This document shows, one piece after another, positions 46-15,389 of a DNA stretch of 25,614 nt. Source of the DNA: a virus; IMG/VR virus record IMGVR_UViG_3300034101_002041, positions 1-25,614 of that record. One strand, written 5' to 3'. The number at the start of each line of letters is the position of its first letter. The stretch's first letter is position 1. Below the pieces are notes generated by a model that did not search any database, was not told the DNA's origin, and saw nothing but the letters and a program-made list of their open reading frames with translations. The position numbers and the translations under genes were made by a program.

Positions 46-119
46 TGGCGGATCTGGGAATTGAACCCATATTCCTCCAGGTTATGAGCCTGGCGTGACT
101 ACCGTTACACTCATCCGCG
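46..119 (-). tRNA. tRNA-Met or initiator tRNA (CAU)
   Basis: A cloverleaf can be drawn by hand. The acceptor 2-7/66-71 pairs fully, the D-arm contains GG, the 5-bp anticodon stem closes a 7-nt loop reading CTCATAA (anticodon CAU), and the T-loop is TTCAATT. Position 1:72 is a C:C mismatch, a hallmark of bacterial initiators, but the anticodon stem has only two of the three initiator G:C pairs. Initiator, elongator and Ile2 identities stay open. The discriminator is A73 and no CCA is encoded. Confidence 0.85.
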
Positions 120-120: not shown

Positions 121-203
121 TGCCCACCGGGGGACTCGAACCCCCACACCTTTTCGGCACCTGATTCTAAGTCAGGCGTGACTACCAATTCCACCAGGCG
201 GGC
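121..203 (-). tRNA. tRNA-Leu (UAG)
   Basis: The 7-bp acceptor stem (with one G:T pair) and the anticodon loop CTTAGAA (anticodon UAG) are clear. The long type II variable arm and the T-arm GGGGG-TTCGAGT-CCCCC fit the leucine class. The discriminator is A73, as expected for Leu, and no CCA is encoded. One base separates it from the Met tRNA, so the two are probably cut from one transcript. Confidence 0.93.
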
Positions 204-825: not shown

Positions 826-896
826 AGCGGGTGACGGGATTTGAACCCGCGACTGGGGCTTGGAAGGCCCTGATGTTCCCACTACACCACACCCGC
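826..896 (-). tRNA. tRNA-Gly (UCC)
   Basis: The acceptor GCGGGTG/CACCCGC is a perfect 7 bp, the anticodon loop is CTTCCAA (anticodon UCC), and the T-arm is CGGG-TTCAAAT-CCCG. The discriminator is U73, normal for bacterial glycine tRNA, and no CCA is encoded. Confidence 0.94.
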
Positions 897-980: not shown

Positions 981-1054
981 TCTGGATGGCAGGATTTGAA
1001 CCTGCGACCTGGACTTTCCAAAAGTCCTGAGCTACCAAGCTGCTCTACACCCAG
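981..1054 (-). tRNA. tRNA-Pro (UGG)
   Basis: The acceptor CTGGGTG pairs over 7 bp (one G:T), the D-arm contains TTGG, the anticodon stem GGACT/AGTCC closes the loop TTTGGAA (anticodon UGG), and the T-arm is GCAGG-TTCAAAT-CCTGC. The discriminator is A73 and no CCA is encoded. Confidence 0.93.
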
Positions 1055-1281: not shown

Positions 1282-1354
1282 TGGAACCTAGGGGGTTCGA
1301 ACCCCTGACCTTCTCCATGCCATGAAGACGCTCTACCAGTTGAGCTAAGGCCCC
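1282..1354 (-). tRNA. tRNA-Ala (GGC)
   Basis: The acceptor GGGGCCT pairs over 7 bp (two G:T), the D-arm is standard (AGCTCAACTGGTAGAGC), the anticodon stem TCTTC/GGAGA closes ATGGCAT (anticodon GGC), and the T-arm is AGGGG-TTCGAAC-CCCCT. The discriminator is A73 and no CCA is encoded. Confidence 0.94.
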
Positions 1355-1515: not shown

Positions 1516-1587
<72 letters not shown>

Positions 1588-2004: not shown

Positions 2005-2049
2005 ATTATAGGGGTTTTCGAGGAGTGGGTAAAGGGCGGTTTCCCGCCC
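2005..2049 (-). promoter_or_regulatory. Hairpin-promoter cassette after thg1
   Basis: This is the clearest copy of the recurring unit: GGGCGG-GAAA-CCGCCC hairpin (2034-2049), TTTACC (2028-2033), a 17-base spacer and TATAAT (2005-2010). The hairpin begins two bases after the thg1 stop, so terminator and next promoter share about 45 bases. Confidence 0.75.
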
Positions 2050-2051
2050 CT

Positions 2052-2816
2052 TTAGGGGTAGAGCCGGATCTCTTCTGGCTTTTCGCAAGATGACACGACC
2101 GTTCGCTGAACTGGTCCAGTGGGCCTATGTTCCTCCGGAATGTCAGAGTCGGAAAAGTCCTCAGGCTGCAGAGTGACCGTTTTCCTCTTCACGTACGTCC
2201 CTTCCTTAAAGAACAAAGGAAGCTCTTCCCAGGGTGTCCCGTTTTGAGCCAGGAGTTCCTTCATTTCCCTGCAAGTCTTGTTCTGCAAGGACTTGTGGGA
2301 GAAGAACGCACGAGCATACATTGAAACGGAGTTCTTCTGAGCATCTAGAAACCTCCATTGAAAGTTCTCGTAAGCCAGCTCCAGATTCGGTACGGACCAA
2401 ACACGAGAGTCAAAGACAGGATACTTTCCCACCTTTTCCGGTAGGTATCTCCCAAGATTCGCAGAGAAGAACGATCCTGCCATAGAAGCAGTGACGGACG
2501 CCACCTTCTGGAATTTCCCACCAAACCAAAATTCTCGGTTCGAAAACTCCTGCTTGTTTAGGTGCCAGAACAGGGAAATCTCGTCAGACTGACAATACCC
2601 TAGAGTGGCTTCGGTCTGCTCCACCAAAAACTTGGTAGTTTCTACCATGAGGTCGGTGAACCTCTTATCGAAGGGTCTCTGGAGACCTTTGGTGAATTTG
2701 CTGAACGACTTTCCGTCAATTCGGCACATCAAAGGGACGTAAGGGTCTGCTTTCCGTCCCGCTTCGGCCTGTTCGAGGGCTTTCAGCTTGTCACCTAGGC
2801 TATCGGAATGTGACAT
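2052..2816 (-). CDS. thg1: Thg1-family tRNA 5'-end (3'-5') nucleotidyltransferase
   Basis: A 254-residue protein with the Thg1 signature: R32-I-D34-G35-K-x-F for metal and nucleotide binding, and S77-D78-E79-I-S, the second carboxylate pair of the catalytic site. The spacing matches the D29/D76/E77 pattern of the eukaryotic enzyme. The conserved N-x-V-S-M-Y-A-R stretch follows in the middle. Thg1 proteins add G-1 to tRNA-His; Thg1-like relatives rebuild damaged tRNA 5' ends in the 3'-to-5' direction. Which job applies here is unknown. The gene is about 460 bp upstream of the tRNA array, and a CCA-adding enzyme is encoded at 9146-9886. The start at ATG 2816 has no obvious Shine-Dalgarno. The family call is solid. 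Confidence 0.9.
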   Translation of the reverse strand: MSHSDSLGDKLKALEQAEAGRKADPYVPLMCRIDGKSFSKFTKGLQRPFDKRFTDLMVETTKFLVEQTEATLGYCQSDEISLFWHLNKQEFSNREFWFGGKFQKVASVTASMAGSFFSANLGRYLPEKVGKYPVFDSRVWSVPNLELAYENFQWRFLDAQKNSVSMYARAFFSHKSLQNKTCREMKELLAQNGTPWEELPLFFKEGTYVKRKTVTLQPEDFSDSDIPEEHRPTGPVQRTVVSSCEKPEEIRLYP

Positions 2817-2843
2817 TTTTAGTGGGTCGTGAGCTAAGGGGCA

Positions 2844-2880
2844 ATTCTACGGGGACGACGGGCGAAACGCCGAAAAACTC
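2844..2880 (-). promoter_or_regulatory. Putative promoter for thg1
   Basis: The minus strand has a GGCG-TTT-CGCC hairpin (around 2861-2871) followed by TAGAAT (2844-2849), 27 bases before the thg1 ATG. It looks like a diverged hairpin-promoter unit. No good -35 is visible. Confidence 0.35.
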
Positions 2881-2883
2881 AAA

Positions 2884-3096
2884 CTAAACTTTTCCAGGGT
2901 AAATCAGCTCGAGAATAGCATTCATTTCTTCGAGAGTGAGAACGTAGCCCCTCTGAGCTTGCTTACAGGAGGCTTCCTTCAAATACACATCCTTTTCTTC
3001 ACTCCAGCTGGAGAGGTCTGGATCAAAAGCCATGTCCCTCAGGTAGTTGAGTTTGGCAAAGGCTTCTTCGTTTTCAACGAGGGCTCGAATAGTCAT
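2884..3096 (-). CDS. Small hypothetical protein
   Basis: About 70 residues starting MTIRALVENEEAFAKLNYLR and mostly helical in character, with no recognised motif. I use ATG 3096; an in-frame TTG at 3123 would deepen the overlap with the upstream gene. It overlaps the end of the 3074-3298 gene by 23 bases, so the two are probably co-transcribed. Function unknown. Confidence 0.6.
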   Translation of the reverse strand: MTIRALVENEEAFAKLNYLRDMAFDPDLSSWSEEKDVYLKEASCKQAQRGYVLTLEEMNAILELIYPGKV

Positions 3097-3298
3097 TCTT
3101 TTTACTAGTGAGATTGATTTCAATTGAGACCAGGTCCGACCCCAAAGATTCCCCTCTGAAGTCTTCCCTTTTCTGAATCTTGTAGGAAATAGTTGAGACC
3201 GTATGTTCAGGGTATTTCTGAAGAACCTGACTCCGGATTAAGGCGTCTAGTTGATCCTTTGATAGTTTGACTGAGAAATTAGAGAAAAAGTCTTCCAT
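3074..3298 (-). CDS. Small hypothetical protein, paralog of the 6309-6509 product
   Basis: A 74-residue protein beginning MEDFFSNFSVKLSKDQL. It aligns along almost its whole length with the 66-residue protein at 6309-6509: M[ED]DF, [ST]x[DE]Q, IR, KYPExTV, then RGExxG. The charged N-terminus, helix and beta C-terminus suggest a small alpha/beta fold. The conserved KYPE and RGE motifs are probably functional, but I know no family for them. ATG 3298 is the natural start. Confidence 0.7.
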   Translation of the reverse strand: MEDFFSNFSVKLSKDQLDALIRSQVLQKYPEHTVSTISYKIQKREDFRGESLGSDLVSIEINLTSKKNDYSSPR

Positions 3299-3420
3299 TC
3301 TAGTTGTAGGTTGTGTTTTCTGTTGTCATTCCGAAGAACTTTCAAGAACCCTTGCGATAGCCTTAAGGCATTTCGGGCAAGGGACTTGTGCCTGTCGCCA
3401 AGCTCGTCAGTGTGTGACAT
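3247..3420 (-). pseudogene. Small ORF with a Thg1-like N-terminus
   Basis: A 57-codon frame starting MSHTDELGDRHKSL, which matches 9 of 14 residues of the Thg1 start (MSHSDSLGDKLKAL); after that the similarity stops. It has its own TATAAT (3443-3448) and a GAGAAAG element close to the ATG, so it may be expressed. It overlaps the next gene by 52 bases, which argues against a full-length product. Another frame of the same strand encodes CPKCLKAIARVLESSSE before a stop, so a frameshifted small CxxC protein is also possible. Confidence 0.35.
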
Positions 3421-3442
3421 GTCTTTCTCAACTTGTTCTATA

Positions 3443-3471
3443 ATTATACAGCACCCTGAAGAGTCAGGAAA
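3443..3471 (-). promoter_or_regulatory. Promoter ahead of the 3420 small ORF
   Basis: TTTCCT (3466-3471), a 17-base spacer and TATAAT (3443-3448) on the minus strand. Upstream in the same gap are a variant GGGCGG hairpin (3496-3511) and an ATGGG/CCCAT hairpin (3512-3528), just past the stop of the adenylate-forming enzyme gene. The gap as a whole therefore resembles a stretched cassette. Confidence 0.55.
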
Positions 3472-3536
3472 GGCTGAAAACCGTTCATTTCAGGGCGGTA
3501 ATCCGTCCATGGGCTGAAAACCCATTCTGCCTCGAA

Positions 3537-4877
3537 CTACACCAAGGAAACGAAATCTTCTAGCTTCTGATTAGGAAGCTTCTTTAAGGGGGCGTTTTGA
3601 TACGCGAAAGTAATTGTGAATCCATAGCCCAAAGATTCGCAGATAATCTTTCTCAAACTTTCCTCATCTTTTTCGCTTGGAGTGGACTCTACAAAGAAGT
3701 TAGCCTGGAGTGCTTCTGGAGAAGTTTGCCGAATGTGAAATTGCCTTATCGGGACCACTTCTGAAAATTCCCGGTATCCCACTAAAGGCCAAACCTTATT
3801 TCCGTTTGGAAGTGATATCATGTTTCTACTCCTTCCTTTTATAGAACTAAGAGTGTGATGGAAATCATCAGCTGGAATTGCCCAGTCCCCTATGTCATAC
3901 CTGACTAAAGGTGTAGCAAAATTGAAAAGATCGGTGATTACTACACGCCCTATTTCGTCTGGTTTACATCTTTTTCCGCCTTCGTCCAAAACTTCTACGA
4001 TCAGGGAGTAGTTATTAACCGTGTACACCCCTTCAGGGGACACTTGGGTGGCTATTCTCCCAACCTCTGAACTCGAATAGGTGTCGAGGACATTGGCACC
4101 AGTGGCTTCACCGGCCATTTTCCTCACTTCATCTGAAAGTGTTTCTCCGAGGGTTCGGATAACCTTAAGTTGCAAGGGGTTTCTTTTGCCGCTTCCCCAT
4201 ATACTGACATATTCCTTTAGGACGGAGGGAAAAATAATAAGAAGGTCTGGACGAAACTTTTCGAGTTCTTCTAGCTGTGTGAAGACATCTAGCGACGTGG
4301 GGACTGACAGCATGGGTCCCACCCGAAATAAAAGGCTAGTTGCAGGGTCCCATTCCCCGCACTCCTTTAAGACTGTATTACTGGGCTTCACTGAGGCCAT
4401 CCTCCATGAAAAGTCGGTCCCAGACTTTAGGTGTGTCCAAGGGAGCTGAGCCATTCCTATAGCCCTATTAATCGCGGTGCACCGGACCTTTAAGGGAACA
4501 CCAGTGGAACCAGAAGTTCTCGCAGAGTGCAAAGGGAGGTGGTGTTTAGGTACTTTGCTCTCACGGATATCCTTGTAAATGCTTTGAAAGTAGAATTTGT
4601 CTTGAGGTTCTACTAAAGCTAGAAGGTTCGGGAGAGTTAAATCTTTCGAGGTTTCAGGAAAGTTTGTTCTTAATCTCCCTCGAAAATTGGAGCTGACCTT
4701 AGAGAAGTGACTCATAAGGGTCTTCAGATGAAGACGCTGCCTCTCTCTGATCTCATCTTTGGATAGGTTTTCGACTCTTTGTACTTCTGATATTATGCTA
4801 TGGAGGTCCGAAGCGTCCCCTGTCAGGAATGGAATCGGAGGGTCAAAGTCATCGAAACGATAGTTAGCGTTAAACAT
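3537..4877 (-). CDS. PaaK/CapK-like adenylate-forming enzyme
   Basis: A 446-residue protein with hallmarks of the ANL adenylating superfamily, phenylacetate-CoA ligase/CapK branch: P-loop-like T121-S-G-S-T-G-V-P (ATP binding), Y267-S-S-S-E271, and V-I-T-D-L-F followed by R326-Y-D-I-G-D331. These enzymes activate a carboxylate as an acyl-AMP and often pass it to CoA or another acceptor. Length fits the family (about 430-450), so it looks complete. The substrate cannot be read from sequence. Its ATG overlaps the end of the methyltransferase gene by 8 bases (ATGTTTAA), so the two should be translationally coupled. This is unusual cargo for a phage; roles in modifying DNA, tRNA, a small molecule or surface sugars are guesses. 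Confidence 0.8.
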   Translation of the reverse strand: MFNANYRFDDFDPPIPFLTGDASDLHSIISEVQRVENLSKDEIRERQRLHLKTLMSHFSKVSSNFRGRLRTNFPETSKDLTLPNLLALVEPQDKFYFQSIYKDIRESKVPKHHLPLHSARTSGSTGVPLKVRCTAINRAIGMAQLPWTHLKSGTDFSWRMASVKPSNTVLKECGEWDPATSLLFRVGPMLSVPTSLDVFTQLEELEKFRPDLLIIFPSVLKEYVSIWGSGKRNPLQLKVIRTLGETLSDEVRKMAGEATGANVLDTYSSSEVGRIATQVSPEGVYTVNNYSLIVEVLDEGGKRCKPDEIGRVVITDLFNFATPLVRYDIGDWAIPADDFHHTLSSIKGRSRNMISLPNGNKVWPLVGYREFSEVVPIRQFHIRQTSPEALQANFFVESTPSEKDEESLRKIICESLGYGFTITFAYQNAPLKKLPNQKLEDFVSLV

Positions 4878-5595
4878 TCTTTATGAGGTCAATATAGGTT
4901 AGCCTCCACCGAAGCTCACAGTTGCCACTCTCTCTTGAAAATTCTATTCCCACATAGTCGGAAAGGGCGTCGAGAAGACATTTGTCTGAAGGGGAAAGAT
5001 CGAGTCCAAAAAGAAGCTTGCAGAAAGTCAACATATCTGAAACTGCATTGAACACCCACGGGCAGTCTCTTTCTTCAGCGTGCAAGAGGTTTAAACCACT
5101 CTCAAAACCGTGGGAAACGATCTCCTCTGAAGTCCTCCAAATTCCCTTATGGCCTGTGGACGTCCATTCATTGACAAATTCGTCCAGAAAATTCCGAATT
5201 GGGCCACTAAACCCGACGTCTGCCAAATGAAAGTATCCCCCCTCTTCAAGATAAGGGACTACCTCAGATAAAAATTCTTTAGGGTCATTCACATGATGAA
5301 AGGACGCGAGATTAACTACTCGATTAAACTTAATTCGGGAGACTTCGCTGAATTTCTTGACCTTTTCGTTTTGTGGGCAAAAGTCTAGACTCTCAACTTC
5401 AACAGGTGTGTTTAGATTTTCTTCTAAATACCCCCCTAGTGCGGGGAAGTCAAGGATTCTCTCCCTTCCTCTTACGGGGAGTCTCTCGAACAGAGCCTGA
5501 AATTCTTTCCGCCGAGATCCAGGGAAATCCCTCATCGCCCTATCATAAGAAGCTCCCCGGTGCCTGAAGATTCCTTCGTAGTCTGTGGTTTTCAT
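4870..5595 (-). CDS. SAM-dependent methyltransferase-like protein
   Basis: A 241-residue protein. Residues about 45-60 (RERILDFPALGGYLEE) resemble methyltransferase motif I, though the usual GxGxG is degenerate. A central RVVNLASFHHVNDPKEFLSEV stretch followed by YLEEGGYFHLADVG matches the motif II/III region of class I (Methyltransf_11-type) enzymes. The C-terminal half is helical and may bind substrate. ATG 5595 has AGAGGG 7 bases upstream. Overlap with the adenylate-forming enzyme gene suggests both act on one product. Fold call moderate; substrate unknown. Confidence 0.65.
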   Translation of the reverse strand: MKTTDYEGIFRHRGASYDRAMRDFPGSRRKEFQALFERLPVRGRERILDFPALGGYLEENLNTPVEVESLDFCPQNEKVKKFSEVSRIKFNRVVNLASFHHVNDPKEFLSEVVPYLEEGGYFHLADVGFSGPIRNFLDEFVNEWTSTGHKGIWRTSEEIVSHGFESGLNLLHAEERDCPWVFNAVSDMLTFCKLLFGLDLSPSDKCLLDALSDYVGIEFSRESGNCELRWRLTYIDLIKNV

Positions 5596-5679
5596 TATAC
5601 GGCCCTCTATTCGGGGCGTGATTTTAAGTTGTTCAGACTCTTTTAAAGAAGATGAACTCGCAGTGACTTTCCGGAAGGC

Positions 5680-6039
5680 TCAAATTAATCCCTCGAGAAC
5701 GTCAATAGCCTCCGGGGGCCAGTATGTGCCTGATCCCCACTCTGGTTTCTCTTTGCTCAGACAGAAACACTCAAAAGTCTCCCCATCTACTGAAAGCTCA
5801 GGCTTAGCCCAGTTCGATGAGAGGTAGGTGTAAGTTTCTTCTCGGGGGACGATAGACCCTTTTGAAAAGATTAGTCCACCGGTCCACTCCCAGTCCGATT
5901 GAAGTCCCGCAGCGGCTTCCTTAAGTGTTCCTAACAGGAGTCTGTCCCGTATAATTTCTGCTGCTTTGATCCAATCGAAAACCATCATTGGTGAATCGCG
6001 GTTCATCCGACTCCATATGGTCGCTGATGCTGTGTCCAT
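5680..6039 (-). CDS. Hypothetical protein
   Basis: A 119-residue protein, tryptophan-rich (WSR, DWIKAAE, WEWTGG, NWAKPE, WGSG, YWPP), with a helical N-terminal half and a beta-like C-terminal half. I do not recognise a family. ATG 6039 is used, nine bases after the gene at 6049. It seems to close a four-gene group running from 6509. Confidence 0.6.
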   Translation of the reverse strand: MDTASATIWSRMNRDSPMMVFDWIKAAEIIRDRLLLGTLKEAAAGLQSDWEWTGGLIFSKGSIVPREETYTYLSSNWAKPELSVDGETFECFCLSKEKPEWGSGTYWPPEAIDVLEGLI

Positions 6040-6048
6040 TTTGCTTTC

Positions 6049-6312
6049 TCAGTTTACTTCTGCCCAATCCCTGAGATCTACGATCTCGAACCAGTCGCAG
6101 TTCTTAATGTAACTGCCACCACTCACTTTGTAAGTCGTGTGGATGCTTTTGACCTCCCCTTTTCGCTTGCCACTCTGAAAGTAGGTGGGGAACTCGAGAA
6201 ACTCCACTTGGGAGCGAGCTTCCTCACAGGTTTCATAGCAGGCTACCCAGTCACCTGTTCCAGACTCCGGGTAATACCCTGAGCCGGCAATCAGAAGAAA
6301 AGGCTTCGTCAT
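6049..6312 (-). CDS. Small conserved-looking phage protein
   Basis: An 87-residue protein beginning MTKPFLLIAGSGYYPESGTGDWVACYETCEEA. The LLIAGSxYYPxSGTGDW opening is one I associate with small proteins of unknown function in large phages; this is recollection, not a search. Start ATG 6312 overlaps the stop of the upstream gene as ATGA, indicating coupled translation. Function unknown. Confidence 0.65.
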   Translation of the reverse strand: MTKPFLLIAGSGYYPESGTGDWVACYETCEEARSQVEFLEFPTYFQSGKRKGEVKSIHTTYKVSGGSYIKNCDWFEIVDLRDWAEVN

Positions 6313-6509
6313 TTCTTTTTCATCTTGAGGGTGACACCTTTCACCTTTGTTCCATAGTGTTCGCCCCTCATGTCGTACTCCGCTTCAGTCTTGAAGTCAA
6401 TCTTTTCAACAGTGAACTCAGGGTATTTCCGGAAGACTGCATCTCGAATAATGAAGAGAACTTGTTCGGGGGTCAGGTCTACTGTTACGTTGAGGAGGAA
6501 GTCGTCCAT
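6309..6509 (-). CDS. Small hypothetical protein, paralog of the 3074-3298 product
   Basis: A 66-residue protein (MDDFLLNVTVDLTPEQV...KYPEFTVEKIDFKT...MRGEHYG) clearly related to the protein at 3074-3298, which points to a duplication. It has a lysine-rich C-terminus. ATG 6509 follows an AAAGGAA Shine-Dalgarno and lies about 25 bases from the TATACT box of the 6534 cassette, so it is probably first in its group. Function unknown. Confidence 0.7.
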   Translation of the reverse strand: MDDFLLNVTVDLTPEQVLFIIRDAVFRKYPEFTVEKIDFKTEAEYDMRGEHYGTKVKGVTLKMKKK

Positions 6510-6533
6510 TTTCCTTTAGAAACCACTGAGTTC

Positions 6534-6578
6534 AGTATAGTGGCGGTTTGCGAGGGAGTATAGGGCGGTTTCCCGCCC
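6534..6578 (-). promoter_or_regulatory. Hairpin-promoter cassette
   Basis: GGGCGG-GAAA-CCGCCC hairpin (6563-6578), then TATACT as a -35-like hexamer (6557-6562), a 17-base spacer and TATACT as -10 (6534-6539). It should drive the group starting at 6509. The rest of the gap up to 6687 holds no confident gene; an 18-codon frame at 6591-6647 (MRGFGGTKRAVTYFVSRE) preceded by GAGAGA is the only candidate. Confidence 0.6.
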
Positions 6579-6687
6579 CTTTCAGGGTTCCTATTCCCTG
6601 GAAACGAAATAGGTAACGGCACGCTTTGTGCCACCAAACCCCCGCATTCTCTCAGAATTCCTGGATCTATAGTATCCGGTAACGAGT

Positions 6688-6915
6688 TTAGTTCAGGAGA
6701 TAGACACGAGAGTCGTCCGGCACTAAAATAACCTTCAGCCCCGTGTCTGAAAATTGAGCTTCCATGATCTCCCTAAAGGAGGAAACCTTTTCCTCAGTGT
6801 AGCCTGGTGGAATGGTGACTACGACTACCCTGGTTAGATCTCCCGGTGTGGTAGCCTTTGAGGTTTTGCTGAGGTTCTTAGGTAGATCCCCGTTGTTTGT
6901 TGCAGTTACTGTCAT
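6688..6915 (-). CDS. Small hypothetical protein
   Basis: A 75-residue protein with a Thr/Ser/Asn-rich, probably flexible first 28 residues, then an apparent beta-alpha-beta-beta unit (TRVVVVTIPPGYTEEKVSSFREIMEAQ, LKVILVPDDSRVYLLN). No family recognised. It lies 11 bases after the 6927 gene and is probably co-transcribed with it from the 7345 promoter. Confidence 0.6.
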   Translation of the reverse strand: MTVTATNNGDLPKNLSKTSKATTPGDLTRVVVVTIPPGYTEEKVSSFREIMEAQFSDTGLKVILVPDDSRVYLLN

Positions 6916-6926
6916 AGATGAAAAGA

Positions 6927-7301
6927 CTACCCGATTAGCTCAACAAGTTCTCTAAAGTAATCGTGAACTTCAGGTAGACCTCCCGAGCAACCGTAATTCC
7001 ATGCCAAGGAGAAACACTTTTCGGCTTTCTCTGAGTTGGTTAGACCCTCCTCCCTAAACAAGTCCTCTTTGAACTCTTCTTCTAAGCTAACCTTCTCCTT
7101 AAGGTAAGTCTGTTCGTGAGCGAGGTACCCTTCTCTATCGAAAACTACCTCTTCAACTGCTCCGTTTGGGACTTCATCTATCTGGGAGAAGGGTTTCTTA
7201 ACTAGAATAAGCTTTCCCCTCTTGTAATAATATATCACAGTGTAGTTGGCTTTACTCGGGTACTCGGTAGCGAGAGTCGTGTAGTAGGAGTATGGTTTCA
7301 T
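6927..7301 (-). CDS. Hypothetical protein
   Basis: A 124-residue protein from ATG 7301 (MKPYSYYTTLATEYPSK); an in-frame TTG at 7319 is possible but less likely. The N-terminal part is beta-like and tyrosine-rich (NYTVIYYYKRGKLILVKKPF); the C-terminal part is an acidic helix region. No family recognised. It is first in its group behind the TATAAT at 7345. Confidence 0.6.
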   Translation of the reverse strand: MKPYSYYTTLATEYPSKANYTVIYYYKRGKLILVKKPFSQIDEVPNGAVEEVVFDREGYLAHEQTYLKEKVSLEEEFKEDLFREEGLTNSEKAEKCFSLAWNYGCSGGLPEVHDYFRELVELIG

Positions 7302-7344
7302 TTTTGAAGCCGGGGTCAAATCCTAAAGTTCAATTGAACGATAA

Positions 7345-7386
7345 ATTATAATCCCGGGACCGCAGGGTATTCCGGACTTCCCGGGA
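7345..7386 (-). promoter_or_regulatory. Promoter with inverted repeat
   Basis: TATAAT (7345-7350) is preceded by two copies of the palindrome TCCCGGGA (7352-7359 and 7379-7386) that can pair as a stem. This is the same hairpin-then-TATAAT layout as the cassettes but with unrelated sequence, and no clear -35. Confidence 0.4.
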
Positions 7387-7390
7387 GTTT

Positions 7391-7423
7391 GCGCCGCGCA
7401 TCCGCCGCGCATCCGCCGCGCAC
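7391..7423. repeat. Three tandem 11-bp GC-rich repeats
   Basis: Units GCGCCGCGCAT, CCGCCGCGCAT and CCGCCGCGCAC follow the stop of the collagen-like gene. The local base composition is much more GC-rich than the neighbours. On the minus strand it could fold as part of the mRNA 3' end. Confidence 0.7.
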
Positions 7424-7435
7424 CCCCTGGCGGAC

Positions 7436-7978
7436 TTAACGTATCGTGAACCAGTTTTCGCCACGACGAAAAACTCTAACAGACTCGTAAGGAGTAGCCA
7501 TTGTGTAGTCCCCCTGCCCGTCAATTAGAGAAGGGGGCTCTGGCTTGACTATTACCTTTCTGTTTCCGATGGGCGGCTCCATCTCCACCTTCACGATGTA
7601 CTCAATGCAGCTATCTTCATCGCTCTTCAGGGTCACCGTTACGCTCTCTTCACTATCCACACCTATGTAGTAATCAAACTCTGTGGCCGTATAGTCTTGA
7701 CTCACCTTTATACAGGGTCTAAGGGATGGTCCCGGGGGTCCTGGGGGTCCTGGGGGTCCTGGGGGTCCTGGGGGTCCTGGGGGGCATTCTTCTTTACAGT
7801 CCTCTTCGGAATCGTTATCTATGTTGATATTAACGGTTCCCGGTGAAGGTTGATGGAGAAGCTTTGTGATCTCTGCTCGAGTGACCTGTATCATGGATTC
7901 TAGCTTCGGGTCGTTCGACCTTTGGTACTGAGCTAGAAGGTTGTAGAGATCGATAAGTTTTCTTTCCGCTGAGTCCAT
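7436..7978 (-). CDS. Collagen-like protein, probable virion fibre
   Basis: A 180-residue protein: helical N-terminus (1-40), acidic linker, a collagen stretch of six GPP triplets at about residues 67-84, then a C-terminal beta domain ending DGQGDYTMATPYESVRVFRRGENWFTIR. The collagen part implies a trimer, and this type of C-terminus often ends trimeric phage fibres. No signal peptide is seen. It follows another likely structural gene (8036) and is separated from it by a terminator. Fibre, capsid decoration or tail appendage are all possible. Confidence 0.7.
   Translation of the reverse strand: MDSAERKLIDLYNLLAQYQRSNDPKLESMIQVTRAEITKLLHQPSPGTVNINIDNDSEEDCKEECPPGPPGPPGPPGPPGPPGPSLRPCIKVSQDYTATEFDYYIGVDSEESVTVTLKSDEDSCIEYIVKVEMEPPIGNRKVIVKPEPPSLIDGQGDYTMATPYESVRVFRRGENWFTIR
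7737..7785. repeat. 9-bp tandem repeat encoding GPP
   Basis: About five copies of GGGGGTCCT on the plus strand (AGGACCCCC on the coding strand). Each unit is exactly three codons, so copy-number slippage changes the collagen rod length without breaking the frame. Confidence 0.85.
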
Positions 7979-7993
7979 GGTTGTCTTAAATGG

Positions 7994-8016
7994 AAAAGGA
8001 GGGGTTGAACCCCTCC
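7994..8016 (-). terminator. Rho-independent terminator
   Basis: The minus strand shows a 7-bp stem GGAGGGG/CCCCTCC with a 5-nt loop and then TTTT. It lies about 20 bases after the stop of the coiled-coil gene, making that gene a single transcription unit with the 9070-region promoter. Confidence 0.75.
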
Positions 8017-8035
8017 CGGTGTTTCGTAGCTGAAC

Positions 8036-8953
8036 TCAGCGAACAGCGTTGCTGGTAGAGGACTGCCCGACCCCAGCCATGGTACCAAAGTTTACCATCC
8101 CTTGGCGGGTCTCAGCAATTTGGCTGTTGAGAGCGTTCAGTTGGGAGTTCACCTGAGAGCTCAGAGCAGCGAATTGTGTGTTGAACAGACCATCCCGAGC
8201 ACCCCAGTAATCGTGGCGGCAGTGTTGAAGGTCAGTGTTGCGCTCAATGAGGAGACGATTGAGTTCATCATTCTTGAGAGAATTGATGAGGTCACGGGTC
8301 TTCTCGTTTTCATAACCGACCTGCTTGCTAAGTTCAAACTTGCTCTCGGCAATTTCCTTGCTGAGTTGAGATTGACCTAGGGCAACAGCGGCGGCAACTT
8401 TAGCGGACTCAAGAGCAGCAGCAGTGGCTCCCCTTTCAGCAGATAGAAGAATCTCGGTGCTGAGCTTTTGTGCAGCCATATCTGTGGCAGCCTTTAGGGC
8501 AGCTACATCACGAGCAGCATCAAAGTCCCTGGCCTGTGCAGAAAGGTAAAAGTCGGTGGCTCTTTGCTGAATTTTGTCAGCAGCCTCGTCGATCTTCACC
8601 TGGTTGTTGTGTCCTGTTGTCAGGATGTCACGGTTGGTTGATTCGGAGTGCTCAGCGATGGCGTATTTAATTTCGCCATGCCCTTTGCTAACCTCTTGGC
8701 GAATGTCAGAGGCTTCCTTGAGCACATTGCGCTCAATGGTTGCGTGGTCGCGGTAGAGATTTAGAATGTCTGTGGAATTAAGTTCCATGGGATTTTCAAG
8801 ATTTTCTTCAGAGTTTTCTCGCACTTCAGTCGCGGGAGGTTTAGGTCCCACCACGATAGGACTTTCGGAAACGGGGCCTGGTTGAAGGGGGGCCTGTGCG
8901 TTGAGTGCCCCACTCGGCTCTTTTCCGAGATCGGTTGTATTTGTAGTTGTCAT
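8036..8953 (-). CDS. Long coiled-coil protein, probable virion component
   Basis: A 305-residue protein. Residues 1-60 are Pro/Thr-rich and probably disordered. About 65-260 are strongly helical with alanine-rich heptads (RDFDAARDVAALKAATDMAAQKLS and similar), and the end is QGMVNFGTMAGVGQSSTSNAVR. No enzyme motif or membrane segment. Its own promoter region, long leader and strong terminator suggest high expression, as for a structural protein; that is inference. ATG 8953 has GGGGGAGA upstream, inside a hairpin. Confidence 0.65.
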   Translation of the reverse strand: MTTTNTTDLGKEPSGALNAQAPLQPGPVSESPIVVGPKPPATEVRENSEENLENPMELNSTDILNLYRDHATIERNVLKEASDIRQEVSKGHGEIKYAIAEHSESTNRDILTTGHNNQVKIDEAADKIQQRATDFYLSAQARDFDAARDVAALKAATDMAAQKLSTEILLSAERGATAAALESAKVAAAVALGQSQLSKEIAESKFELSKQVGYENEKTRDLINSLKNDELNRLLIERNTDLQHCRHDYWGARDGLFNTQFAALSSQVNSQLNALNSQIAETRQGMVNFGTMAGVGQSSTSNAVR

Positions 8954-9077
8954 TACACGATCTCCCCCTGAGGGGGTGCGAGAGCCTGAGCTCCCGGGAT
9001 GTGTTAAGAGGGAATTATGTAATTCCGCGAAAGCAGAGCTATAGAATTCCGTCGAAAGTGACGTTGATTGTCACTGG
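8954..9077 (-). promoter_or_regulatory. Structured 5' leader with hidden ribosome binding site
   Basis: The stretch ahead of ATG 8953 holds no gene but several hairpins on the minus strand: AGTGAC/GTCACT, GGAATT-ACAT-AATTCC, GAGC-TCAG-GCTC, and CCCCC-TCA-GGGGG (8964-8976). The last covers the Shine-Dalgarno GGGGGAG. This may tune translation or protect the mRNA. Seen by eye; no energy computed. Confidence 0.45.
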
Positions 9078-9096
9078 TAAAGTATACCCCACTTTT
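9078..9096 (-). promoter_or_regulatory. Shared 19-bp motif, possible promoter
   Basis: AAAAGTGGGGTATACTTTA on the minus strand, matching 1629-1647 at 18 of 19 bases. TATACT could be a -10 box; transcription would then begin near 9070 and give a leader of about 115 nt for the coiled-coil gene. Confidence 0.4.
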
Positions 9097-9111
9097 AGAC
9101 CCTGGCCCTAT

Positions 9112-9137
9112 AAAAAGACCCCCCTTGAACAGGGGGC
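9112..9137 (-). terminator. Rho-independent terminator after cca
   Basis: The stem CCCCC/GGGGG with a 7-nt loop is followed by GTCTTTTTA on the minus strand, nine bases past the cca stop. It is the best classical terminator in the window. Confidence 0.85.
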
Positions 9138-9145
9138 CTCAAAGT

Positions 9146-9886
9146 CTACTTTTCCTTTAGGGACGGCATTAGACGAAGTCCGTCTCGAAAGATAGCCTCT
9201 AGGGTCTGGGCCGGAAGCTCAGCAAATAGCCGCAAGGAGGCCAGAGTGTCTGCATGAAGCATCTTCTCGAGCTCTTCGCGAACACGATTCACATGGACGC
9301 CAGCCAGCATCTCAGCTGCGAAAGGCCCCCAAAGAACTTCTCGAGTCCTCTCCTCGAAGAGGAAACCCTTGGTGACGCTGAACCGAAAGCCTCGCAGGAC
9401 TCGCAGTCCATCCTCGGTTATTCGTTCCAAAGGGTCCCCCACGAAGCGAAGCTGCCGAGCCCTTAGGTCCCCTTGACCTCCCACCAGGTCCACCAAGGTG
9501 CCGTCAACAGTGCGGCACAAAGCGTTAACGGTGAAGTCTCTACGGAAGATGTCATCCTCCAGGGAGCCAGGCAGGACGTAGTCGGGGCGACGACCGTCGC
9601 TGTAGGGGCCATCTCGCCGAGCCAGAACAAAGTCGGCGTCCCGCACTCGCTGGCGAAGAAGGTGACCGACAGGAACTTGAGCACGAATCGTCTGGAATTC
9701 GGGCTTGCTCTCAAAGATCTTAAAACCTTCGCTCCGGAGCTGTTCCTCCAGAGCAGCGAAAGCCTCCTCGACATTGTCAAACATGCCTTCACGGGCAACG
9801 ACCGAAAAGTCAACGTCTTTAGTGGACAGGCCCAGCAGTCCATCCCTCACACAGCCGCCGACTTCGTAAAAGGTGAAGTTTTCCAT
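9146..9886 (-). CDS. cca: CCA-adding tRNA nucleotidyltransferase
   Basis: A 246-residue class II enzyme that adds or repairs the CCA end of tRNA. Seen: G10-G-C-V-R-D-G-L-L-G (nucleotide binding), D24-V-D26 (the two catalytic carboxylates), R115-R-D-F-T-V-N-A-L (ribose/sugar motif), and E157-D-G-L-R-V-L-R164-G-F-R (template motif with Arg and Asp). It is shorter than most bacterial enzymes (about 370-450) and lacks the distal body/tail part, which is often reduced in compact forms. None of the six tRNAs here encodes CCA, so they need such an enzyme. The -10 box TATAAT is six bases from ATG 9886, predicting a leaderless mRNA. A poly(A) polymerase relative is possible, but the context favours CCA addition. 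Confidence 0.9.
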   Translation of the reverse strand: MENFTFYEVGGCVRDGLLGLSTKDVDFSVVAREGMFDNVEEAFAALEEQLRSEGFKIFESKPEFQTIRAQVPVGHLLRQRVRDADFVLARRDGPYSDGRRPDYVLPGSLEDDIFRRDFTVNALCRTVDGTLVDLVGGQGDLRARQLRFVGDPLERITEDGLRVLRGFRFSVTKGFLFEERTREVLWGPFAAEMLAGVHVNRVREELEKMLHADTLASLRLFAELPAQTLEAIFRDGLRLMPSLKEK

Positions 9887-9892
9887 GAGTTA

Positions 9893-9937
9893 ATTATAGG
9901 GCGGTTTTGCGGGGAAGTGTAGGGCGGTTTCCCGCCC
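9893..9937 (-). promoter_or_regulatory. Hairpin-promoter cassette for cca
   Basis: GGGCGG-GAAA-CCGCCC hairpin (9922-9937), TACACT (9916-9921), a 17-base spacer and TATAAT (9893-9898). The ATG of cca follows after TAACTC, so a start 7 bases past the -10 would fall on the ATG itself. Confidence 0.7.
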
Positions 9938-10230
9938 TACGGTGTCTGGTTTCCTTTCAGACCAGAGCGAAATGCTTCAGGGCTCCGGGGTACAAAGCCG
10001 ACATCATAGATGTCGTCATCACAGTCTAGAAAGTACACATAGTTTTGTGTCCAGACATAAAACTTCTGCGAATCGACCCTAGAGGGGAGTTGGGATACAT
10101 CCCCGTAAGATTGGGGGATGGGAATATCCAACCAGCTCTCCCTGGATACGATGACGTCTTTCCAGTCATCTCGGTTGATTTCCATCGCCTTGGCGAACAT
10201 TTCGCGAAGTGAAGTGAATGAGTTTTCCAT
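9937..10230 (-). CDS. Hypothetical protein
   Basis: A 97-residue protein: an N-terminal helix (MENSFTSLREMFAKAMEINRDDW), then beta-like segments with KFYVWTQNYVYFLDCDDDIYDVGF. No family recognised. Its ATG shares one base with the stop of the upstream gene (TAATG), a sign of coupling. Its stop touches the hairpin of the cca cassette. Confidence 0.6.
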   Translation of the reverse strand: MENSFTSLREMFAKAMEINRDDWKDVIVSRESWLDIPIPQSYGDVSQLPSRVDSQKFYVWTQNYVYFLDCDDDIYDVGFVPRSPEAFRSGLKGNQTP

Positions 10231-10424
10231 TAGAGTGCGAAAGCGGTGATAGTGTACTCAGTTCCAGCAAAACCCTTGGTACGCTTGTTCAGCATATCGT
10301 CGCGGAACCTACAGGTAGATTCGCGATTGGCGAAGCGCATAGTCTCGGTGTGGAGGACATCTCCGTAGGTGTGGAGGACCTTGGTGAGGGTGGCAGTGAT
10401 CATCGCAGTAGGGTTCTTTTCCAT
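10230..10424 (-). CDS. Small hypothetical protein, predicted leaderless mRNA
   Basis: A 64-residue basic protein (MEKNPTAMITATLTKVLHTYG...). No family recognised. CATAAT is six bases from the ATG (CATAATTAAGTCATG), the same geometry as cca. The first codons, MEKN, resemble the starts MENS and MENF of the next two genes. Confidence 0.6.
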   Translation of the reverse strand: MEKNPTAMITATLTKVLHTYGDVLHTETMRFANRESTCRFRDDMLNKRTKGFAGTEYTITAFAL

Positions 10425-10430
10425 GACTTA

Positions 10431-10495
10431 ATTATGGCTCACCTCAGCCACAACTATTGCTAATTTTCGCAAGAAAAGTGGGCGGTTTCCCGCCC
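10431..10495 (-). promoter_or_regulatory. Hairpin-promoter cassette, two-hairpin form
   Basis: GGGCGG-GAAA-CCGCCC hairpin (10480-10495), a second hairpin TTTTC-TTGC-GAAAA (10464-10477), and CATAAT (10431-10436). The hexamer at -35 spacing (CAATAG) is poor. Confidence 0.55.
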
Positions 10496-10516
10496 CTCGA
10501 ATCTCGCAGATTCCGG

Positions 10517-10807
10517 TCAGGAATCCGTGAAGTCGAAAACCATTCCGTTAGCCTTGAGGTTAATGACTCGACTTGCGTCGAAGGAGCGCCACGCCCCCTC
10601 TCCCCCATTGGTTTTGGCGACGCGAAAGTCGCGCACTCGGAAGATATTTGCATTGGTATTGGAAGCCCCCGTCCCTCTCACCTCCTGACGATCCCGGGGG
10701 TTAAACTGGATGGTTCGGGTGGAGCCGTCCTTCTTAACGAACTTCACAGAGACGATGGTGGAACCGGTTTGATTCAGAAACTTACGGATGGTCGCAGGGT
10801 CAGCCAT
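10517..10807 (-). CDS. WYL_2/SH3-like small phage protein
   Basis: A 96-residue protein. VSVKFVKKDGSTRTIQFNPRD near residues 19-40 and GAWRSFDASRVINLKANG near the end fit the small SH3-like beta proteins of many phages (WYL_2/DUF2693 type), whose role is unknown. I choose ATG 10807 (MADPATIRKF); the frame stays open upstream past the 10860 promoter, so a longer start is unlikely. Transcribed alone between two cassettes. Confidence 0.65.
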   Translation of the reverse strand: MADPATIRKFLNQTGSTIVSVKFVKKDGSTRTIQFNPRDRQEVRGTGASNTNANIFRVRDFRVAKTNGGEGAWRSFDASRVINLKANGMVFDFTDS

Positions 10808-10859
10808 GGGTCGTGAGGTGTTTTCTGGGGTGGGTTCGGTCAGTGAACCCAATGAACTT

Positions 10860-10905
10860 ATTATAGGTCGTTTCGCCCCTTCTGGTAAAGGGCGGTTTCC
10901 CGCCC
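10860..10905 (-). promoter_or_regulatory. Hairpin-promoter cassette
   Basis: GGGCGG-GAAA-CCGCCC hairpin (10890-10905), TTTACC (10884-10889), an 18-base spacer and TATAAT (10860-10865). It drives the 10807 gene with a leader of about 45 nt. Confidence 0.7.
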
Positions 10906-10925
10906 TCAAAAGGAGGGCCCGAGCT

Positions 10926-11498
10926 CTACGAGCTCAACCAGGTCCCCCTTACGGGACCACAGGAAGATCTCCACATCCTCAGAAGTTTTGCGATTTGTTC
11001 TTCGCTCATTTGATTGAGCAATTGTTTGGCCTGCTCAACCTGGTGATCATTTGGATTATCAAAGGTGGATTTTGTGTTAATTTCATAGGCACCCTCACCG
11101 TAGATTTCTACGATGGCCCAATGTTCATTACCAGACGTTGATGTTCCGTTCTTGTTATATTGTCCAACTTCGGACAAATTATAATTAGGAGTCACTTTCG
11201 TGATGTGCTTAGATCCCCGGGCCAATTTCACATAAACCTTTTGGCCCACAAAATCATCTAGGTTGATATTGGGTGCCTTTTGGGCGATACCCTTATCTTC
11301 AAATGGAGTCAGGATTTTAATAATCCTAGGTTTTGACATTCCTACTCCAGACTCAGTGAACAACCAACCGGAAATCTTATAAGGATACACTATATCTGGA
11401 TAAGGTGTATCCTTTACAAGTGGTCCAGCTAATACAGATTGGTCACGAAGTTCAACGACGATGGTTTTACCAACGTATTGTGAAAGGTCGATAGTCAT
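10926..11498 (-). CDS. Hypothetical protein with two Sm/SH3-like repeats
   Basis: A 190-residue protein. Two similar units are visible: residues 4-45 (DLSQYVGKTIVVELRDQS...) and about 78-118 (NLDDFVGQKVYVKLARGS...). Both begin DxxxxVGxxxxVxL, typical of small LSm/SH3-like barrels. A C-terminal helical tail (QVEQAKQLLNQMSEEQIAKLLRMW) follows. RNA or protein binding is possible but unproven. Base composition is more AT-rich than its neighbours. No promoter is obvious, so it may be read from 12659 onward. Confidence 0.6.
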   Translation of the reverse strand: MTIDLSQYVGKTIVVELRDQSVLAGPLVKDTPYPDIVYPYKISGWLFTESGVGMSKPRIIKILTPFEDKGIAQKAPNINLDDFVGQKVYVKLARGSKHITKVTPNYNLSEVGQYNKNGTSTSGNEHWAIVEIYGEGAYEINTKSTFDNPNDHQVEQAKQLLNQMSEEQIAKLLRMWRSSCGPVRGTWLSS

Positions 11499-11548
11499 AG
11501 GGTTAAATTAAGAATGGTTACTCCGGAATCTTTGAACCTGGGGCACGA

Positions 11549-12199
11549 TTAAGAAACCTCCCACAACTTTTTAGAGCCGTTCCGAAAGATACGAGTGTAG
11601 TCGTCGTGAAGAGTCTTCATCGTGCTGGGGGACATGGGCCCGAAGGAATATAGCTTTTTCTTTCCATTCGGGACAGGAATCCAGCCCCCGTCTTCTTGAA
11701 CATTCGAGTCAAACAGACAAAGCTCAACTTTCCTCCCTTTCTCGAAATGCTTTTGAAAAAACTCTAGAAATTCGGAAGGGTTGTAGGACCTCTCAGTGCC
11801 GATCAGCTCACCCGACACGAGGTTCCTGCTGATACCTTTGCGAATCTCGGAAGCTTCCTCGGAGGTAACGGGAAAATGGGCCTCAATGTACAGATACTCG
11901 TTAGGGTCAAAGCCGGCCGAGCACTCAACCTCGATCTTTAATCTAATCGGGCAAAGGGAAGTCCCTGAATACCACCCTTTGTTATTTTGGCAATTTGCAA
12001 GAAAGCGTAAAGCTGCTGGATGGCCCCCCGTCAATTCTGCCCTCTCACAAGTCATCCAAACCACCTCCCGAGAGAACCCCTCTTCAGACAGGTTCTCGAT
12101 ACCAAGAGTTCTCACACCAGCCTCAAAGCTATTGAGTTCTCGGTTTAGACCTTTCACTCGTCCGGCTTCTTGAGTGATGTGAAATTCGTAACGGGTCAT
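11549..12199 (-). CDS. Hypothetical protein
   Basis: A 216-residue protein (MTRYEFHITQEAGRVKGLNREL...). Mixed alpha/beta with a C-terminal GPMSPSTMKTLHDDYTRIFRNGSKKLWEVS. No motif recognised; no signal peptide or membrane segment. ATG 12199 lies 46 bases after the 12246 gene, probably one transcript. Function unknown. Confidence 0.6.
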   Translation of the reverse strand: MTRYEFHITQEAGRVKGLNRELNSFEAGVRTLGIENLSEEGFSREVVWMTCERAELTGGHPAALRFLANCQNNKGWYSGTSLCPIRLKIEVECSAGFDPNEYLYIEAHFPVTSEEASEIRKGISRNLVSGELIGTERSYNPSEFLEFFQKHFEKGRKVELCLFDSNVQEDGGWIPVPNGKKKLYSFGPMSPSTMKTLHDDYTRIFRNGSKKLWEVS

Positions 12200-12245
12200 T
12201 TGATAAGTGTGAAATGGAACTCTTAGTTGTTGGAAAAAAGAGGAA

Positions 12246-12659
12246 TCACCGAAAGAGGAAAACCCAATAGGGATAGCCGTTCGATTTGTTGCACCCTTCG
12301 ATGATTTCGCAAAGGGTCAGACCCGGCTTCTCCAGAAATTCCTCCAGAAATTTCTGAATCTTCATGGGGTCCCGATTTGACCAATTCTGTCCTTCGTTTC
12401 CGAAATGCTTCATACAGAGCTCGTCGTGCTTTTTGAAGTCCCACCCAAGAAGGCGATCAGAGTAGACCGAGTCTGTGTGATTGAGTCTCCCGGAGTGTTT
12501 CCAGATAGTGAAAGGGTCGTAGCTGTACGGGTGAGAGAACTTGGTTTTGACCCCTTTCGGTGGGTTGAAGAAATCAACCGTCCCCCAAGAGATTTCGCCC
12601 AAAAGTAATTCAGATATGAAATCACTGAGTTCTTTCTCGCTTTTTCGAAGGGGGTCCAT
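12246..12659 (-). CDS. Hypothetical protein
   Basis: A 137-residue protein rich in aromatic residues (SHPYSYDPFTIWKHSGRLNH, RLLGWDFKKHDELC). No family recognised. It is the first gene after the 12703 cassette and starts at ATG 12659, with a leader of about 35 nt. Confidence 0.6.
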   Translation of the reverse strand: MDPLRKSEKELSDFISELLLGEISWGTVDFFNPPKGVKTKFSHPYSYDPFTIWKHSGRLNHTDSVYSDRLLGWDFKKHDELCMKHFGNEGQNWSNRDPMKIQKFLEEFLEKPGLTLCEIIEGCNKSNGYPYWVFLFR

Positions 12660-12702
12660 AAGGTGAACAGGGGAAACAGTTGGGGTTTAGACCTATCACT
12701 CA

Positions 12703-12747
12703 ATTATAACGTCAATCCTGTCCCTCGGAAAGGGCGGGAAACCGCCC
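12703..12747 (-). promoter_or_regulatory. Hairpin-promoter cassette
   Basis: Hairpin GGGCGG-TTTC-CCGCCC (12732-12747; loop sequence inverted relative to most copies), TTTCCG (12726-12731), a 17-base spacer and TATAAT (12703-12708). It sits directly after the stop of the cREC-like gene. Confidence 0.65.
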
Positions 12748-12748
12748 C

Positions 12749-13126
12749 TCACAAAGGAGCGGCTGGGTATTTCTCAGCGAGTCTGAGGAACTTCTCCCAT
12801 CTCTCTGGTCGAGTCGCGCTCATAACCTTGAACTGATGGAGAGACCAGCGAATAGACCACGCTATACGATTTCTGCCCACAGGATTCGCAGAGTGGATCT
12901 GAAAGATTGGGGGGACGAAGTCGCCATCCCACCCTTCATTCCAGATTTTGTTTTCCAGCCAGGTGCAAACATCGTATCCGGTTCCTCTCTCATCGTCGCC
13001 CAGGTCGTGATCCAGGGAAACGACTTCGACATCACCCTGCTCAATTAGGGAGATAACCTCGCTTGGCCAGCGGCAACCTACCCACCCTTCAGGCGTGGGT
13101 CTCTCATCGTCCAGGAAGATTTTCAT
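12749..13126 (-). CDS. Cyclic-phosphate-processing receiver-like (cREC) protein
   Basis: A 125-residue protein with the receiver-like acidic cluster L5-D6-D7-E8-R9-P at the first strand, L38-D39-H40-D41-L-G-D44-D45 at the phosphoacceptor strand, then G-T-G-Y-D52-V and a tryptophan-rich end. LDDERP...SLDHDLGDDxxGTGYD is the pattern of the small receiver-like domains predicted to handle cyclic-phosphate RNA ends in RNA repair contexts. That function is a family prediction. It would fit with the Thg1 and CCA-adding enzymes here, although the genes are not in one operon. Confidence 0.7.
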   Translation of the reverse strand: MKIFLDDERPTPEGWVGCRWPSEVISLIEQGDVEVVSLDHDLGDDERGTGYDVCTWLENKIWNEGWDGDFVPPIFQIHSANPVGRNRIAWSIRWSLHQFKVMSATRPERWEKFLRLAEKYPAAPL

Positions 13127-13180
13127 CGAAGTGTGTCCTAAAAAGTCGAGGATTTTCGAAAATGCTCGAAAAAAGTTGTG

Positions 13181-13372
13181 TCACAATTTCTCAGAGAGCC
13201 CTCTCGAGAGCCCATTAAGAAAGCTGGTCCCCATGTGACTCCAGAACTCGGTGTCTGTCAGAGCGTCGGTGACACCCTTCAGAATTTCCGTAGGTGTCGC
13301 AGTCGATAGAGCCTCCTTCTCCTCAGGTGTGAGCTCATTCATAAACTCATTCAGAATCCGGTCGGTGTCCAT
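13181..13372 (-). CDS. Small hypothetical protein
   Basis: A 63-residue acidic, fully helical-looking protein (MDTDRILNEFMNELTPEEKEAL...). No family recognised. It lies between the 13393 and 12749 genes in a three-gene group read from the 13659 cassette. Confidence 0.55.
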   Translation of the reverse strand: MDTDRILNEFMNELTPEEKEALSTATPTEILKGVTDALTDTEFWSHMGTSFLNGLSRGLSEKL

Positions 13373-13392
13373 CTATACTCTAACAGTGGTGA

Positions 13393-13626
13393 TCAGCCGA
13401 GGTGGCCGTAAGCCATTGGCCGGGGAGCTTTCACAGCGGAGACAAGAGTCATTCGCGGTGCCGAACGATTGATCTGGTAACCGTCTTCTTCGAAAAGGTT
13501 CACATAGTAGCGACCATTCGGCAGGAGCCCCGCAGTAAAGTAGGATCCTGGCTCGTCCTCCGTGTAGGCCTGTCCGAAAGTCTCAGCTTCGGTTTCAGTG
13601 GTGAACACAAACTGAAGGTCGTCCAT
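13393..13626 (-). CDS. Small hypothetical protein
   Basis: A 77-residue acidic protein (MDDLQFVFTTETEAETFGQAY...NGRYYVNLFEEDGYQ). Beta-rich in appearance. It is the first gene after the 13659 cassette, with about 25 nt of leader. Function unknown. Confidence 0.6.
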   Translation of the reverse strand: MDDLQFVFTTETEAETFGQAYTEDEPGSYFTAGLLPNGRYYVNLFEEDGYQINRSAPRMTLVSAVKAPRPMAYGHLG

Positions 13627-13658
13627 TCGTTTGGCAGGTCCCTTGACTCGACCCCTTA

Positions 13659-15376: not shown

Positions 15377-15389
15377 ATTTTTGTTTTCC

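Follow-up and report, generated by a model that had tools for sequence, protein, structure and literature searches.

A viral locus encoding three putative RNA-end enzymes

The DNA analysed here is a 25,614-b viral fragment from IMG/VR (record IMGVR_UViG_3300034101_002041), hereafter the window, which comprises the whole record and in which nearly all genes occupy the minus strand. A first-pass annotation had recognized three genes potentially acting at RNA ends, encoding a Thg1-family enzyme, a CCA-type nucleotidyltransferase and a cREC (cyclic-phosphate processing receiver-like) protein. All three are present on the minus strand with family matches well above the respective cut-offs (Table 1), and the gene order is cREC - CCA - Thg1 - tRNAs. 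The six tRNAs described as lacking an encoded CCA were recovered by two methods, and none of the six encodes the triplet; they span 45-1587, however, and thus lie outside the interval 2052-13126 to which they had been assigned. The closest complete relative, G005 (277 kb), contains all three genes on one strand within 7.5 kb, the encoded proteins displaying 66 percent (compact CCA enzyme), 50 percent (cREC) and 65 percent (Thg1) identity to those of the window. In G005 a tRNA follows Thg1 after ~0.2 kb, there are 55 tRNA matches overall, and an RNA ligase gene is located 35 kb away. As this close relative carries all three genes, the window appears to be part of a genome of similar size, and the fragment is probably derived from a jumbo phage.

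A compact family of CCA-adding-type enzymes

The protein encoded by the CCA-type gene matched PF01743 (E 2e-18) and phrog_24229, a phage family of 245 positions (E 2.3e-52). Its designation as a CCA-adding enzyme holds for the catalytic head, which is present; the protein, however, comprises only 246 aa, and the second half of known CCA-adding enzymes is absent. A profile scan of IMG/VR identified at least 80 relatives, while a single-sequence scan returned none. All 50 compact open reading frames (ORFs) sampled encode proteins of 233-255 aa (median 245), most of which have a conserved hydrophobic-x-P-T motif, or one closely resembling it, at the C-terminus. Because this length is shared by 50 homologues, the possibility that the window gene is a truncated pseudogene was ruled out. 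Within the same 50 proteins the motifs VGGxVRD, DxD, RRDF and EDxLR show little or no variation, and the catalytic head (PF01743) was detected in every member. The neck motif, EDGLR, occupies residues 158-162 of the window enzyme, D159 and R162 being invariant in the homologues, while PF12627 was identified in 34 of them.

An AlphaFold model of the compact enzyme, built from the 50 sequences (a two-sequence input gave a useless fold), had a predicted local distance difference test score of 95.5 and a predicted template modelling (TM) score of 0.89. Comparison with class II CCA enzymes using Foldseek gave a TM score of ~0.7 of the query and 0.45-0.5 of the target, and VIA gave a Z of ~20.7 over 211-215 residues. 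The structural match spans only the first ~225-285 of the ~370-400 residues of the class II enzymes. As modelled, the compact family keeps the class II head and neck without the body and tail. It shares the head and neck fold and all the catalytic motifs of bacterial class II enzymes (1miv, 6qxn), but lacks the ~140-180 residues that form their tRNA-contacting body and tail.

Only 4 of the 80 best cellular-genome matches were compact, and the family is therefore close to virus-specific. The four cases comprise two contigs from cyanobacterial metagenome-assembled genomes (MAGs), a fragment in one of these MAGs and a phage-looking contig encoding a DnaB-like helicase. One of the cyanobacterial contigs (L412, 206-5509) displays the order RNA ligase - tRNA array - compact CCA - PIN - RlaP, while in the other (L411, 761-5638) a VWA-domain protein precedes the compact CCA gene and KptA is near. 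These two regions are probable RNA-repair islands, and their contexts tie the compact family independently to RNA repair. As the family matches phrog_24229, to which the window enzyme also corresponds and which is labelled tRNA nucleotidyltransferase, its existence is already catalogued. The library entry, however, is silent on the missing domains and the gene context, and no description of the compact architecture was found in the literature searched.

The Thg1-like protein and cREC

The Thg1 homologue matched PF04446 (E 3.7e-28; 98.5 bits against a cut-off of 29.2) and phrog_4717 (E 2.8e-70), and its best match of solved structure was the Bacillus thuringiensis protein BtTLP (PDB 4kgk; E 4e-33), whose activity is the in vitro repair of 5'-truncated tRNA and not the addition of G-1 to tRNA-His (PMC3701042). 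D34, D78, K104 and R138 of the window protein align with D30, D75, K99 and R131 of BtTLP, so that the catalytic Asp, Lys and Arg positions are retained, and D34 and D78, the metal-binding aspartates of the Thg1 catalytic domain, are invariant in nine phage homologues. At the position of BtTLP M158 the window protein also has M, whereas yeast and human Thg1 have N. Judged from these residues and from its best match, the protein is of the bacterial repair type, a Thg1-like protein (TLP), and not a eukaryotic Thg1. It differs from BtTLP in that K43, which contacts the activating ATP (PMC3701042), is replaced by R47, and in ~45 extra C-terminal residues that do not align. Thg1 homologues occur in 127 NCBI phage records and in at least 583 IMG/VR stretches. 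As early as 2010 the gene was recognized in phage 201phi2-1, together with the suggestion that it might serve repair in the face of host defences (PMC2904730). Our literature search found no biochemistry of a phage TLP. A role for the TLP in 5' editing of mismatched phage tRNAs was also considered. It was not supported, because clean 1:72 mismatches were restricted to initiator-looking Met(CAU) tRNAs, the test being a rough one, since part of the tRNAs had their stems misread by the parser.

The cREC protein matched PF20274 with an E of 2.5e-25 (89.4 bits against a cut-off of 27), and D6, D7, D39, D41 and the HSxN motif are invariant in seven phage homologues. By sequence it is a clear member of this family, with a receiver-like domain containing two conserved predicted catalytic Asp sites.

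Linkage of the genes across phage contigs

Gene distances were compared with a chance model that assumes uniform placement and independent contigs. Among 48 Thg1 contigs of at least 60 kb, CCA-type enzymes were found in 16 and cREC in 13. Thg1 and cREC were within 10 kb of each other in 8 of these 13 contigs compared with 1.6 expected, although 7 of 12 is the fairer count as G028 and G031 are duplicates. Unbiased clustering of the neighbours of phage Thg1 genes identified cREC as the most frequent, followed by a membrane protein and Acb1. Among 281 neighbours located no more than 4 kb from Thg1, a Pfam scan also revealed RNA ligase, RlaP, HAD_SAK_2, NAPRTase, EF-Ts and RF-1. Of 41 compact-CCA contigs, 17 contained cREC, 27 RNA ligase and 8 Thg1. 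In 7 of these 17, the compact CCA gene and cREC were no more than 10 kb apart (2.6 expected, p 0.007), being directly adjacent in three. In five contigs, two of them near-duplicates, an RNA ligase gene lay within 2 kb of the compact CCA gene (1.5 expected). cREC and RNA ligase were within 2 kb in 3 of 13 contigs (0.5 expected). The context of cREC, near Thg1, the compact CCA gene and RNA ligase in several contigs, is that expected of the family, namely RNA repair or NAD/ADP-ribose processing and no histidine kinase. RNA ligase was found in 23 of 33 Thg1 contigs and also in the relatives G001, G002, G005, G049 and G082, and RNA ligases, PNKP-type phosphatases and RlaP recur beside Thg1 or the compact CCA enzyme.

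The same set recurs in an ordered form in two large relatives, G116 and G117, where cREC, RNA ligase, compact CCA and Thg1 follow one another in a single direction. The four genes fall within 23 kb in G116 (373 kb) and within 36 kb in G117 (430 kb). In G082 (41 kb; CCA enzyme 62 percent identical) the compact CCA, RNA ligase and Thg1 genes are located within 8 kb. It should be emphasized that counts of genes sharing a strand carry little weight, as most genes of such genomes run in one direction. None of 17 ribonucleotide-reductase control contigs contained cREC or a CCA gene, but these contigs were much shorter and the control is therefore only directional. In contigs selected through cREC, the CCA gene was present in 10 of 34. 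The gene set is modular and not obligatory.

tRNAs, promoter-like elements and neighbouring genes

The triplets that follow the discriminator in the Met, Leu, Gly, Pro, Ala and Gly tRNAs of the window are TTT, TCG, TAG, CTA, CTT and CTT, respectively. Among tRNAs near phage Thg1 genes CCA is encoded in only 1 of 146. The absence of CCA is thus ordinary in this group, and the proposal that the window tRNAs need the phage enzyme, while correct in that none encodes CCA, does not follow from this feature alone. The 1:72 position of tRNA-Met(CAU) is unpaired in relatives through different bases (CxC at 46-119 of the window and, by our reading, AxC at 16128-16202 of L108); the phage may therefore encode an initiator tRNA, as initiators are unpaired at this position.

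Between tRNA-Ala and tRNA-Pro, a segment at 1100-1254 (minus strand) has an RNA-like appearance, with a GGCGAC/GTCGCC closure and a T-loop-like TTCAAAC, and folds slightly better than shuffled sequences (z -2.1). It is not conserved in the fetched loci or in NCBI phages, and a hidden tRNA-His (GTG) containing an insertion was not found in it by ARAGORN with introns or by Rfam. The tRNA array also includes an HNH-type ORF (218-892, minus strand), a possible homing endonuclease by a weak match.

Table 1. Position of the principal genes, tRNAs and promoter-like elements in the window.
Feature	Position	Strand	Basis
Thg1-like protein (TLP), 254 aa; predicted to extend tRNA 5' ends by 3'-5' polymerization	2052..2816	-	PF04446, phrog_4717, BtTLP match
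Compact nucleotidyltransferase of the CCA-adding type (246 aa), with head and neck but no body or tail	9146..9886	-	PF01743, family lengths, AlphaFold, fold match
cREC protein, 125 aa	12749..13126	-	PF20274, conserved residues
tRNA-Met(CAU), no CCA; C1xC72 mismatch, initiator-like	46..119	-	two methods
tRNA-Leu(UAG), no CCA	121..203	-	two methods
tRNA-Gly(UCC), no CCA	826..896	-	two methods
tRNA-Pro(UGG), no CCA	981..1054	-	two methods
tRNA-Ala(GGC), no CCA	1282..1354	-	two methods
tRNA-Gly(GCC), no CCA	1516..1587	-	two methods
Palindrome and promoter-like element (TACACT-17-TATAAT); box ends 6 nt before the CCA-gene ATG	9893..9937	-	sequence pattern
Palindrome and promoter-like element downstream of Thg1, facing a small gene and the tRNA array	2005..2049	-	sequence pattern

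The palindrome GGGCGG-N4-CCGCCC occurs 11 times without mismatch in the window, at mainly intergenic sites from 2034 to 21324; almost none are expected in shuffled sequences, and two copies were observed in 20 kb of G005. Several copies run into a TATAAT-like box, and palindrome and box together may form a terminator-promoter element that marks transcription units. Such an element precedes the CCA gene, whose mRNA is probably leaderless judged from the position of the box, and sequence patterns of this type are located ahead of the tRNAs at 2049, 1714 and 1465. No promoter-like element was found within 3.7 kb upstream of Thg1, which may be the last gene of a unit beginning near 6578. This layout agrees with the earlier suggestion that the genes belong to separate transcription units, which is plausible.

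Other genes of the window include a complete quinolinate synthase, NadA (17032-17952, minus strand; PF02445, E 2.9e-118), which is unusual for a phage, with matches in only nine NCBI phage records, and which could feed NAD synthesis against NAD-depleting defences. Just upstream of Thg1 (3537-5595, minus strand) are overlapping genes for a PaaK-like AMP-binding ligase (446 aa), which had a single weak match in NCBI phages, and an S-adenosylmethionine-dependent methyltransferase (241 aa). A protein with a collagen-like GPP repeat is encoded at 7436-7978 (minus strand). Two relatives with 64-67 percent identity in Thg1 (L002 and L003) encode EF-Ts and, by sequence reading, AlaRS-like, CysRS-like and peptidyl-tRNA hydrolase proteins.

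Discussion

The general idea of tRNA repair by these phages is already published (PMC7824862, PMC2904730). Iyer, Burroughs and Aravind proposed in 2021 that jumbo phages carry out cyclic-phosphate cleanup, CCA addition and 5' end repair; the predicted components that they list comprise RNA ligases as well as cREC, a CCA-adding enzyme and Thg1 (PMC7824862). The portions of that study on which we draw give presence or absence and cREC-RNA ligase links, but contain no compact CCA family and no linkage of Thg1 or the CCA gene with cREC. Similarly, Thg1 and CCA genes of Xanthomonas phage XacN1 have been described as serving tRNA processing (PMC5852040). It carries Thg1 in two copies, 56 tRNAs and a CCA enzyme, and a cREC-like match was found in the same genome; its CCA enzyme, however, matches that of the window only weakly (35 percent), and the genes are not clustered as in the window.

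The evidence tips modestly in favour of a jumbo-phage gene set for the maintenance of tRNA ends, loosely associated and modular, to which the three genes belong. In such a set, the activities, substrates and role against host nucleases that we infer would be as follows. The compact CCA enzyme would add or restore CCA on the CCA-less phage tRNAs and on host tRNAs with trimmed 3' ends, while the TLP would copy the 3' acceptor strand to replace nucleotides lost from the 5' end. Where nucleases cut tRNA, cREC would open the resulting 2',3'-cyclic phosphates (or, alternatively, a related cyclic ADP-ribose phosphate), and an RNA ligase encoded elsewhere in the genome would seal the break after the cREC step.

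Several observations weigh against this proposal. The larger and relevant proteins of the window, which is itself a fragment, gave no match in Pfam or PHROGs to the RNA ligase, polynucleotide kinase or phosphatase families of T4-type RNA repair (PNKP and RNA ligase), small ORFs being outside the scan, although RNA ligase is present in relatives. The activity of cREC is a prediction only in the literature (PMC9503650), and the chance model treated as independent the near-duplicates G028/G031 and G107/G113. The co-occurrence of the three genes across phages, which the first-pass annotation had proposed as a check, was borne out in that Thg1-cREC and compact CCA-cREC pairs are closer than chance, but Thg1-CCA linkage was not significant (2 of 16 in the Thg1 set; 3 of 8, p 0.08, in the compact CCA set). 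Thg1 was present in only 5 of the 34 cREC-selected contigs, and in G049 (279 kb), which encodes the closest cREC (56 percent), the three genes are present but 28-110 kb apart. The term repair kit, used in the same annotation, therefore conveys too tight an association: linkage is real and repair-gene neighbours recur, but it is loose and most cREC phages lack Thg1.

It could be argued that cREC is an anti-signalling enzyme, which destroys cyclic nucleotides or ADP-ribose derivatives of CBASS- or Thoeris-like defences, and that it lies near Thg1 because both belong to one counter-defence region and not because of tRNA chemistry. This is the strongest rival for cREC, because Acb1, a 2H phosphoesterase with established cleavage activity on CBASS signals, holds the same position in other phages, its gene being located upstream of Thg1, adjacent or a short distance away, in six related large phages (L113, L114, L115, L116, L118 and L119). 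It is also consistent with the NAD/ADP-ribose contexts from which cREC was first defined (PMC7824862, PMC9503650). cREC, however, also adjoins RNA ligases and the compact CCA gene, and we judge an anti-signalling role to be possible but not probable.

Rather unlikely, in our view, is that the CCA enzyme and TLP serve only the maturation and quality control of phage tRNAs, through CCA addition and the correction of 5' trimming errors, with no host attack involved. The CCA-less tRNAs downstream of Thg1 in both the window and G005, the position of the compact CCA gene directly ahead of a 22-tRNA array in cyanophage S-CBWM1, and the presence of up to ~55 tRNAs in Thg1 contigs are in accord with this role. 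CCA-less tRNAs, however, are normally served sufficiently by host CCA enzymes, and the recurrence of RNA ligases, PNKP/HAD phosphatases, RlaP and cREC beside these genes points to broken RNA beyond maturation. We are equally doubtful that there is no functional link, the three being independent accessory genes gathered in the same early-gene regions of large phages. Each is common without the others and all correlate with large genomes, with a control set too small to exclude chance gathering, but linkage exceeds uniform placement, the compact CCA and cREC genes are adjacent in three contigs and the four-gene order is repeated. Finally, it is highly improbable that the window Thg1 adds G-1 to tRNA-His as in eukaryotes, as the sole support is the annotation name of phrog_4717, tRNA-His guanylyltransferase, whereas the window lacks a tRNA-His, the protein is of the TLP type by sequence, and in the two tRNA-His near phage Thg1 genes a G precedes the parsed position 1 (one parse being uncertain).

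What is new here is the compact CCA family and its measured linkage. Within the tRNA end-maintenance proposal, a further and tentative possibility is that a half-size, virus-specific CCA-adding enzyme, which lacks the tRNA-holding domains and is perhaps aided by a partner, provides the 3' end module of a modular system that undoes host attack on tRNA, the other components being cREC, an RNA ligase and a 3'-5' polymerase. The linkage gives cREC a concrete, testable context, and makes repair of damaged tRNA by a phage TLP a directly testable question. Known class II CCA-adding enzymes hold the tRNA elbow through their body and tail domains. A well-ordered and widely conserved phage family without these domains would show the minimal needs of protein-templated CCA addition or, alternatively, would be an RNA-end enzyme with another target.

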